64,000 nt of DNA, from contig JAMOAB010000124.1 in assembly GCA_023621995.1 (NCBI GenBank), forward strand, positions 62,001 through 126,000, written 5' to 3'. This stretch comes from Bacillota bacterium. GTDB taxonomy: Bacteria > Bacillota > Clostridia > Caldicoprobacterales > Xylanivirgaceae. Shown here one piece after another: positions 10,259 to 13,258 of the stretch (positions are counted from its first letter, which is position 1; every line of letters starts with the position of its first letter). Position numbers and translations under genes: made by a program. The notes beneath the pieces were generated by a model. It saw nothing but the letters and a program-made list of their open reading frames with translations, was not told the origin of the DNA and did no database searches.

Positions 10259-10669
10259 ATGTATATAAAATGGAGAGAAGACCTAGAGATAGGAATAGAT
10301 GAAATAGATGCTCAACATAAAGCTCTCTTTGAAAAGGTAAATGATCTTCTCCATGCATGCAATACAGGGAAGGCAAAGGAAGAGGTAGTGAGTACATTAG
10401 AATTCTTATCAGAATATGTTGTAACCCATTTTAAAGATGAAGAGGCATATCATAGGAAATACAAATATCCACATTATAAGGAGCATGCAAAATTACACAG
10501 TGACTTTGTAGAAGAGATAGAAGAACTTAAAAGAGCATACGAAGAAGAGGGTACAAATCTTCAATTGGTTGTAATGGTCAATCAGAAAGTGGTCAATTGG
10601 CTTATAAATCATATTGGCAAGGCAGACAAGGCATTTGGTAAATTTGTAAGCTCATTAGACAACTCTTAA
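10259..10669 (+). CDS. Bacteriohemerythrin
   Basis: A 136-residue single-domain hemerythrin. The seven di-iron ligands can all be read: His20, His57, Glu61, His72, His76, His118 and Asp123. Such proteins bind O2 reversibly and serve as oxygen carriers, sensors or scavengers in the cytoplasm. No signal or fused domain is visible. The ATG follows AAAGGAGGAGAGAC. It stands alone between the tRNA terminator and the spoIIE promoter, where B. subtilis has no such gene. A protective role against oxygen in an anaerobe is inference. Confidence 0.93.
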   Translation: MYIKWREDLEIGIDEIDAQHKALFEKVNDLLHACNTGKAKEEVVSTLEFLSEYVVTHFKDEEAYHRKYKYPHYKEHAKLHSDFVEEIEELKRAYEEEGTNLQLVVMVNQKVVNWLINHIGKADKAFGKFVSSLDNS

Positions 10670-10728
10670 CAAATTATTTTAACGGATCAGCATATATATC
10701 CATCTTTATATTAGATCATAGTTATTTT

Positions 10729-10794
10729 TGTCGCAAAGTTTTTTAATATTATCTGCCTATATTGACAAATAATTTACATCTCTTTTGTTATAAT
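10729..10794 (+). promoter_or_regulatory. spoIIE promoter with 21-bp spacer and Spo0A-box-like sites
   Basis: TTGACA at 10762-10767 and TATAAT at 10789-10794 are separated by 21 bases. TGTCGCA (10729-10735) and TGACAAA (10763-10769) each match the 0A box TGNCGAA in six of seven positions. In B. subtilis spoIIE and spoIIG, sigma-A promoters with 21-22 base spacers are activated by Spo0A~P bound at or near the -35 region. Confidence 0.75.
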
Positions 10795-10852
10795 TAGCAC
10801 TACCTATTGATATGGGTAATATAAATTGTTTTATTAGGTGGTGTTATATACC

Positions 10853-13258
10853 ATGCAAAAGGGAACGTACCAATATGACAATGTAATATTTTTAAATCGG
10901 AAACAAAACTCACAGACAGATATAAAGAGGGTACTTAAGAAAAGAGATATACTCATATATATAGGCTGGATTTGTGCATCATTTTTTATAGGCAGGGTAG
11001 TCATATTAGAGGACCTGGCGCCGTTTGGAGTAGCACTTTATGCCTCTCTCTCCCATAGCAGCACCTATTCTTTCATATATTTAATCCCAATAGCTATTGG
11101 TACTTTGACAAATAGTTTTAACCTTTCAGGTGTGAAATATACAGTAGCACTATTAATTTTATATGTATATGGACAAGCTAGAGGCGTGAAACGGAAAAGG
11201 CTTAGTAGATATGAGAGGGGCATGGCTGCTCTAATTTCCATATTTGTAGCTAATGTAATTTTTTTATATATTAAAGGATTTATACTATATAATTTTATAA
11301 TAGCCCTTTTAGAGAGTACTGTTGCTTTTATAATGGTATATATATTTAGTCACACCATAGATGCACTATCTAAAGGGCAAAAGAGACGCATTCTATCCAA
11401 TGAGGAAGTTATATGCATAAGCATATTTGCCTCCCTAATAGTCGTAGGATGTTGGGATAATAGTATATTTTCCATATCTCTGCGAAATGTATTATCCATT
11501 TATTTGATATTATTATCAGCATATTTAGGTGGTGCAGGAGTTGGAGCAGCCATAGGTATTACGGTCGGTTTCATATTATCCCTTGCAGGTATGAGTGATG
11601 CAGTATTCATTGGTTGCTTGGGGATATGTGGCCTGATGGCAGGTACGTTTAAAGATTTAGGCCGTATAATCAGTGGAACTGCTTTTGTAATTGCCAATAT
11701 ATTGACTACGTTTTATATCAACAAATCCACGTATACCATAATTCCTCTTAAGGATATAATGGCTAGTGGTTTCCTCCTTGTCATAACTCCTACCCATATC
11801 CTTAACTACATAAGGCAATTTTTCGATGCTTCAATTATAAGGCATAGGGATCAGATATTTTATATACGTAGAATGCAGGATATGATCTCAGGTAGGCTCA
11901 AGGAGTTTTCTAGGGTATTCAATCAACTCTCTAAGACGTTTAGCAATATACCTACAGAGACTGAATATAGTGATGGGTCCCAGGAGGTATCTGAGATAAT
12001 AAATTTAATAGCCCATGAAGTATGCTCGAGCTGCTCTCTATATAAGAGTTGTTGGGAAAAGGAATTCTATATAACTTATAATAGTATATTTAAGCTACTT
12101 ACTTTGGTAGAAAAAAAGGGTTATATAGAAGAAGACGATATTACAAGCCAATTTAACATACGTTGCTATAGACCTTATGCCATGGTTGAACAGGTCAATA
12201 GCATATACTCCATGTATAGTACTAATCTAAAATGGGAAAGGCAGTTAGATGAATGTAGATATTTGGTGGCAGATCAGCTAAAGGGTATCTCCCAAGTGAT
12301 AGAGGAGTTGGCAGAAGAGATAGATATAGATGTACATTTTAAACGGGAGATAGAGGACAAGATAAGAATTGATTTAGATAAGAGGGGTGTACGCTGTAAA
12401 GATGTCTTAGTGTTAGAGAAGACAGCAGGTAAACTTGAGGTATCTATTGTCAAAAAGGCTTGCAAAGGCAGGAAAGAATGTAGCAGATTGGTAGAAAGTG
12501 TGGTATCCCACGCACTTGGAAGACCGCTTATGTGTAAGAATAAAGAATGCATTTATGCAGGTGGGGATGAATGTTCCATATATCTAGAGGAGGCTAAAAA
12601 ATTCAGTATTGTAACAGGTATAGCTTCTAGGCCGAGGGAACCAAAGGAACCAACAGGCGATAGCCATTCCTTTATGGAGCTTAGAGGGGGAAAGTTCATG
12701 CTTGCCATCAGTGATGGTATGGGCTCAGGAAGTAGGGCTGCAGCCGAGAGCCAGGATGTAATATCCCTCCTTGAGAACTTTATGGAGGCAGGCTTTGATC
12801 TGGATATCACAGTGAAAACTATCAATTCGGCCCTCATATTGAGATCGGGAGATGAGATGTTTGCTACTGCTGATATATGTATTGTAGATCAAGTGACTGG
12901 ATATGCAAATTTTGTAAAGATTGGTGCAGTATCCACTTTTATAAAGAGGGAGAATACAGTAGATATAGTCAGAGCATCTAGCCTACCTATAGGGATCATT
13001 GAAGATATAGATTCGGATAGGGAAGTAGTAAAGCTATGTGATGGGGATATGATAATCATGGTTACAGATGGGATACTAGACGCATATCAAGGACAATTTG
13101 ACAAGGATAGCTGGCTAAGCGGGATTATTGCTACTAAAAACACCAAAAATCCGCAGGATATGGCAGATCATATAATGGACTGTGCACTGAGAGTAGGAGG
13201 TAAGGGGCCACAAGATGATATGACAGTGATGGTCAGTCGGGTGTGGCGATCATCATAA
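10853..13258 (+). CDS. spoIIE: Stage II sporulation protein E (SpoIIE phosphatase)
   Basis: This 801-residue protein (827 in B. subtilis) has an N-terminal region with about ten membrane spans (residues ~40-330). A central oligomerisation region contains a cysteine-rich patch (CSSCSLYKSCW). The C-terminal PP2C phosphatase domain (about 600-800) has metal-binding Asp motifs AISDGMGSG, MVTDGILDA and GPQDDMTVMV. SpoIIE localises to the polar septum, interacts with FtsZ and dephosphorylates SpoIIAA, thereby activating sigma-F in the forespore. The ATG at 10853 follows AGGTGGTG. Transcription is probably Spo0A-controlled. Confidence 0.97.
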   Translation: MQKGTYQYDNVIFLNRKQNSQTDIKRVLKKRDILIYIGWICASFFIGRVVILEDLAPFGVALYASLSHSSTYSFIYLIPIAIGTLTNSFNLSGVKYTVALLILYVYGQARGVKRKRLSRYERGMAALISIFVANVIFLYIKGFILYNFIIALLESTVAFIMVYIFSHTIDALSKGQKRRILSNEEVICISIFASLIVVGCWDNSIFSISLRNVLSIYLILLSAYLGGAGVGAAIGITVGFILSLAGMSDAVFIGCLGICGLMAGTFKDLGRIISGTAFVIANILTTFYINKSTYTIIPLKDIMASGFLLVITPTHILNYIRQFFDASIIRHRDQIFYIRRMQDMISGRLKEFSRVFNQLSKTFSNIPTETEYSDGSQEVSEIINLIAHEVCSSCSLYKSCWEKEFYITYNSIFKLLTLVEKKGYIEEDDITSQFNIRCYRPYAMVEQVNSIYSMYSTNLKWERQLDECRYLVADQLKGISQVIEELAEEIDIDVHFKREIEDKIRIDLDKRGVRCKDVLVLEKTAGKLEVSIVKKACKGRKECSRLVESVVSHALGRPLMCKNKECIYAGGDECSIYLEEAKKFSIVTGIASRPREPKEPTGDSHSFMELRGGKFMLAISDGMGSGSRAAAESQDVISLLENFMEAGFDLDITVKTINSALILRSGDEMFATADICIVDQVTGYANFVKIGAVSTFIKRENTVDIVRASSLPIGIIEDIDSDREVVKLCDGDMIIMVTDGILDAYQGQFDKDSWLSGIIATKNTKNPQDMADHIMDCALRVGGKGPQDDMTVMVSRVWRSS

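Follow-up and report, generated by a model that had tools for sequence, protein, structure and literature searches.

The question raised by this locus is what kind of promoter precedes spoIIE and what turns it on. In the stretch of DNA analysed here (64 kb, hereafter the window), the initial annotation had pointed to TTGACA and TATAAT hexamers 21 bases apart, with near-matches to the 0A box at and upstream of the -35 region, and had read them as the special architecture of B. subtilis spoIIE and spoIIG, found in a clostridial genome and predicting direct activation of spoIIE by Spo0A~P. The B. subtilis spoIIE promoter, a subject of work by York and others in 1992, reportedly has SigA-like hexamers separated by 21 bp, and its 0A boxes are placed at and above the -35 region. 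At B. subtilis spoIIG the spacing is about 22 bp, and Spo0A~P repositions SigA.

The promoter region of spoIIE

The spoIIE gene (stage II sporulation protein E) occupies positions 10853-13258 of the forward strand, from the ATG at 10853 to the stop codon at 13258, and its product matches TIGR02865 with 685 bits against a cut-off of 491 bits. The listed open reading frame begins at GTG 10838, a position inside the ribosome binding site AGGTGG (10836-10841, forward strand), and the ATG is the one at 10853. The gene is found in the neighbourhood of yabP, yabQ, FtsL/DivIC-like and S1-domain genes, three tRNAs, tilS and a hypoxanthine phosphoribosyltransferase gene; the next gene beyond these resembles ftsH by eye. 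The tRNA cluster is separated from spoIIE by a bacteriohemerythrin-like gene (10259-10669, 125.9 bits). As no terminator was called in the interval from this gene to spoIIE, read-through into spoIIE is possible.

The 21-base spacing was confirmed, as TTGACA lies at 10762-10767 and TATAAT at 10789-10794 of the forward strand, with a spacer of 21 nt (10768-10788) between them. A TG one base 5' of TATAAT makes this an extended -10 element, TGTTATAAT, at 10786-10794. Both near-matches to the 0A box were likewise found. The distal one, TTTGTCGCAA (10727-10736, forward strand), is located 33 nt upstream of the proximal hexamer, and its core TGTCGCA (10729-10735) agrees with TGTCGAA at 6 of 7 positions. 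The proximal one, TTTGTCAAT (10761-10769), is in reverse orientation on the opposite strand and overlaps TTGACA; its core matches the 0A core at only 5 of 7 positions. The two cores are thus found on opposite strands, with a centre-to-centre distance of 32 bp. Judged from the -10 element alone, transcription would be expected to start at 10800-10802.

Two other promoter types were considered for this region and rejected. The window's promoter listing has no -35 hexamer at 16-18 nt from the TATAAT at 10789, which excludes a conventional SigA promoter with a 17-nt spacer on the same -10 element. The SigH consensus is RNAGGAWWW-N11-14-RNNGAAT, and the best match to it in 10670-10853 reached 9 of 13 positions, a value attained by 500 of 500 shuffled sequences.

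We also compared the number of such motifs in the window with the number expected. TTGACA-21-TATAAT with at most one mismatch occurs twice against 1.18 expected, and the exact pair has four copies in the whole 3.08-Mb genome. The pattern TTTGTCGNAA occurs twice (0.22 expected) and TTTGTCRAW six times (1.64 expected). The whole arrangement with both boxes gave one match and none was expected, this pattern being derived from the consensus of the order and hence partly circular. Since the 21-nt hexamer pair alone is close to chance expectation, the case for the promoter rests on its conservation in other genomes.

Conservation in the order and across the phylum

Thirty genomes of the window's order, Caldicoprobacterales, were searched, and 29 of them had a full-length spoIIE. 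A sequence-only model was built from 27 promoters of the order, leaving out those of two genomes, G009 and G024, in which the spacer is 22 nt. This model gave exactly one strong match per genome in 29 of 29 genomes, just upstream of spoIIE and on its strand (E ≤2e-9). For 27 of these the match holds by construction, while G009 and G024 are independent of the model and were recovered at E values of 4e-10 and 2e-9. The thirtieth genome (G011) had neither a full spoIIE nor a strong match. In the window's own genome the spoIIE promoter scored 59.9 bits and the next best place 16.9 bits. Within the order, the promoter layout is specific to spoIIE. The 27 promoters hardly vary in GACAA and the -10 region, GACA being present in all of them, and direct inspection also revealed the 21-nt element in G012 and G002.

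The analysis was then extended to 138 spoIIE upstream regions: 29 from the order, two sets of 21 and 59 from the rest of the class and 29 from other classes. For each region the scan determined which spacer between 13 and 26 nt gives the best TTGACA/TATAAT match, and it therefore presupposes these two hexamers. The 29 genomes from other classes do not form a random sample, having been taken from the top-scoring SpoIIE loci among 95 genomes that gave a match; of the newly added genomes of the class outside the order, 20 came as loci and 40 were hand-picked across families. The upstream region of G012 was placed by hand and one region (L202) was dropped as too short. A related-locus scan of the genome contigs gave one relative only.

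In this comparison of spoIIE upstream regions across relatives, which had been proposed as a check with the initial annotation, the 21-base spacing proved to be conserved. In 103 of 138 regions it alone gave the best match (26/29 in the order, 14/21 and 42/59 in the two sets from the class, 21/29 in other classes), against 3 of 138 on the opposite strands and 40 of 1380 in shuffled sequences that preserve single-base composition only. A spacer of 22 nt was the unique best in 5 regions of 138 and another spacer in 8, the remaining cases without a unique 21 being ties. The spacer of 21 nt was at least joint best in 117 of 138 genomes and in 52 of 65 families. It was absent from the best spacers in 21 of 138 genomes, including two members of the order with 22 nt, and 13 of the 65 families had no promoter with 21 nt among the best. 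Upstream of spo0A, scanned in the identical way, 21 nt was the unique best in 0 of 25 regions. Moreover, in the 117 promoters for which 21 nt was best or joint best, no hexamer matching at 4 or more of 6 positions was present at a distance of 15-20 or 22 nt. The TG preceding the -10 element was found in all 27 promoters of the order, in 30 of 65 from elsewhere in the class and in 1 of 25 from other classes.

These counts indicate that the spoIIE promoter is old and conserved rather than peculiar to one genome, and that its layout is probably ancestral to much of Bacillota. The B. subtilis-type layout seen in the initial annotation was thus correctly recognised, but the rarity implied for a clostridial genome does not hold, the layout being spread across the class and in other classes.

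It can be asked what the TTGACA element represents. In a -35 hexamer, TTG is the best-kept part. Here, T stands at the first position in 24 of 27 promoters of the order, in 24 of 65 from the class outside it and in 7 of 25 from other classes. The 65 class promoters outside the order have T in 24, A in 23, C in 13 and G in 5 cases at base 1, and T in 53 and C in 12 cases at base 2; with one promoter per family (n=48) the values are T21, A15, C8 and G4 at base 1 and T38 and C10 at base 2. Outside the order GACA is kept almost without exception, mostly followed by AA. The scan favours matches to TTGACA, but does so equally for all six positions. Because base 1 is free and base 2 is either T or C, the element agrees better with YGACA, a 0A box (TGTCR) read on the complementary strand, than with a -35 hexamer. 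TTGACA therefore makes better sense as a 0A box in reverse orientation, and it is mainly as such that it has been kept. The occurrence of TTGACA throughout the order was considered as a sign of a retained -35 hexamer; this argument is weakened by the variable first base outside the order, where GACA holds. As the first base is T in nearly all promoters of the order, the perfect TTGACA is mainly a trait of the order, in which the reverse 0A box coincides with a perfect -35 hexamer.

The distal box was assessed in the same promoters. In the order, the best TGTCGAA-like word starts at -33 from the hexamer in 24 of 27 promoters. For the class outside the order, offsets of -33 and -32 together account for the best word in about 33 of at most 65 promoters, ties being shared, and 13 promoters have no word matching TGTCGAA at 5 of 7 positions; about half of the class promoters are without a distal box at -33/-32. 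In other classes the word is at these positions in about 19.5 of at most 25 promoters (ties again shared). When one promoter per family was taken outside the order, 26 of 46 had an exact TGTC at -33/-32, and each of the other listed positions accounted for at most one.

The spoIIGA promoters and the two Spo0A proteins

The same spacer scan was applied to spoIIGA, with shuffled controls that again preserve single-base composition only. In the first set the 21-nt spacer was first best in 19 of 30 regions, and in other classes it was the unique best in 22 of 30, with 22 nt in 3. Among the 14 loci of the order where the pattern matched, the spoIIGA hexamer is TCTACA in 10, TTTACA in 3 and TTGACA in one. 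In these 14 loci the distal word lies 31-33 nt upstream of the hexamer, about the same distance as at spoIIE. In 20 of the 22 spoIIGA loci of the order (the locus of the window's own genome, L094, and 21 others), a terminator hairpin has this TGTCG-like word as its 3' arm, and in the own genome the hairpin has a folding energy of -18.3 kcal/mol (z -7.8). The reading frame that ends just before it carries what we take by eye to be an FtsZ-like C-terminal motif. The terminator of the preceding gene appears to double as an operator half of the spoIIGA promoter.

The genome encodes two full-length Spo0A proteins (two Spo0A_C genes). The canonical spo0A follows recN- and spoIVB-like genes, named by eye. 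The other gene, here called type B (256 aa; G000:C44:5435-6205, the same positions in L122), is carried by the window's contig about 56 kb before the window, near PEP carboxykinase-, veg- and spoIIR-like genes, again named by eye. Sequences confirmed type B in 10 genomes of the order, and scores suggest it in most others. In the Spo0A tree the type-B proteins group in a single, long-stemmed clade that has full SH-aLRT support. The acceptor aspartate motif is retained and both the receiver and the DNA-binding domain are intact. The recognition helix is SKVERAIRHAIDV or close to it in type B versus SRVERAIRHAIEV in canonical Spo0A and in structure 1lq1, that is, SKVER instead of SRVER.

Some further observations concern the distribution of these proteins. 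A TTCGACA-like word was seen by eye upstream of several type-B genes. In three genomes, G021, G025 and G028 (71-89% complete), a single Spo0A was found, which is type B by score or sequence, the canonical copy being either missing or unsequenced. Another second Spo0A, with the helix QKVERAIRNAIES, occurs in four genomes of family f53 (L245, L247, L249 and L251). It was judged by eye to be distinct from type B, and the tree does not include these copies, since the search motif did not match them. One genome of the same family, G217, also has two spoIIE genes. A second Spo0A was considered as the cause of the promoter layout, but this idea is weakened by the genomes with one strong Spo0A that share the layout.

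Predicted activation by Spo0A~P and its relation to known systems

The features of a spoIIE/spoIIG-type promoter are present at this locus: the 21-nt spacing, no -35 hexamer at 16-18 nt, a box over the -35 region, an upstream 0A box, an early sporulation gene and an encoded Spo0A. It is thus very probable that the spoIIE promoter is an activator-dependent SigA promoter activated by Spo0A~P, where we infer the binding, its dependence on phosphorylation, the sigma factor and the start site from sequence. Spo0A~P would bind to the forward box at 10727-10736 and to the reverse box at 10761-10769, the cores of which, 32 bp apart, would be separated by about three helical turns. The proximal box would occupy the place of the -35 element, and RNA polymerase would be held by the -10 element, which is extended in this order. 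Bound Spo0A~P would be needed to place region 4 of SigA, because no usable hexamer is present at 16-18 nt, and transcription would start about 7 nt past TATAAT. Activated in this way, the promoter would turn spoIIE on when Spo0A~P is high. Direct control by Spo0A~P, as anticipated in the initial annotation, is the best reading and is well supported as a prediction, because the spacing and the boxes are conserved, Spo0A is encoded in the genome and spoIIGA shares the architecture.

It is doubtful, though deserving some weight, that the promoter answers mainly to the order-specific type-B protein and not to canonical Spo0A. Most genomes of the order carry type B with an intact receiver and DNA-binding domain, its recognition helix differs, and in the own genome veg-like and spoIIR-like genes are found close to its gene on the contig of the window; the layout, however, is also present in genomes with a single strong Spo0A, so that type B is not needed for it. 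The extended -10 element could permit activity without Spo0A. A Spo0A-independent extended -10 SigA promoter, with TTGACA and the boxes incidental or modulatory, would agree with the TGnTATAAT found in all 27 promoters of the order and perfect in the window, yet the TG is mostly absent in other classes where the spacing and GACA persist, and the distal box is conserved too, which makes this explanation improbable. We consider it highly improbable that the boxes serve to repress a weak promoter, whether through Spo0A or through some other regulator: polymerase could be kept out by a box lying on the -35 region, but the 21-nt spacing leaves no conventional -35 element to block, and repression would not explain why the same odd spacing is retained at spoIIGA. 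A chance match in AT-rich DNA, to which the near-expected number of hexamer pairs in the window might point, has next to no probability, as conservation in the own genome, the order, the 138 genomes and the 65 families refutes it and settles that the layout is not accidental.

Activation of spoIIE by Spo0A~P, the preferred reading, agrees with what is available from published sources. According to the accessible part of a review, activated Spo0A promotes spoIIE expression (PMC8102284). In C. difficile, the Spo0A DNA-binding domain is described, in the part of the report at hand, as shifting a fragment from upstream of spoIIE with low affinity (PMC3485338); the likeness to our case is direct, low-affinity in vitro binding of Spo0A upstream of this gene in a clostridium, but the organism is different, and in that portion of the report the comparison covers Spo0A binding and not the start site or the spacer. 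For C. acetobutylicum, the available text reports that spoIIE is expressed in stationary phase and is not transcribed together with the sigF operon (PMC2530871). The genes spo0A, spoIIE and spoIIGA are named, in the accessible part of another article, among those of all spore-forming bacilli and clostridia (PMC3533761), and the word "promoter" is absent from that article. A literature search that mostly covered papers outside subscription gave no statement of phylum-wide conservation of the 21-nt spacing or of such a second Spo0A, and neither the 0A-box identity of the hexamer nor a terminator-embedded spoIIGA box was found in it. The silence on the spacing and the second Spo0A is weak evidence of novelty.

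The kind of promoter is known from B. subtilis, and the notable part is the depth of its conservation. To our knowledge, bacterial promoters are usually not alignable across families. Base-exact spacing across families suggests that the mechanism, in which Spo0A would replace the -35 contact, is too constrained to drift. It also suggests that the direct control of both spoIIE and spoIIGA by Spo0A is ancestral in endospore formation, and the layout may serve as a simple sequence test for Spo0A control in uncultured lineages. We consider evenly balanced the case for a fuller history, in which a forward 0A box, 32-33 nt, a reverse box, 21 nt and TATAAT were fixed in an early spore-forming ancestor of Bacillota and kept base-exact at spoIIE, the 21-nt part being kept also at spoIIGA. 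In that history the order would have reworked the set, with a perfect TTGACA and an extended -10 element at spoIIE, with TTCTACA and a terminator-folded distal box at spoIIGA, and with a second Spo0A that has an altered helix.

The promoter in the window resembles that of B. subtilis spoIIE in the 21-bp spacing, the placement of the boxes and the gene itself. It differs in having two well-separated boxes on opposite strands (forward distal and reverse proximal) and an extended -10 element. With B. subtilis spoIIG it has the long spacer in common, as well as a box that covers the -35 region; however, the gene is another one, and spoIIGA of the order mostly has TCTACA as its hexamer and the distal box in a terminator. 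In one of the genomes compared, which is presumably Bacillus-like (G337; SpoIIE 984 bits), spoIIE is preceded by TTGACA-21-TATAAT with 0A-like words upstream.
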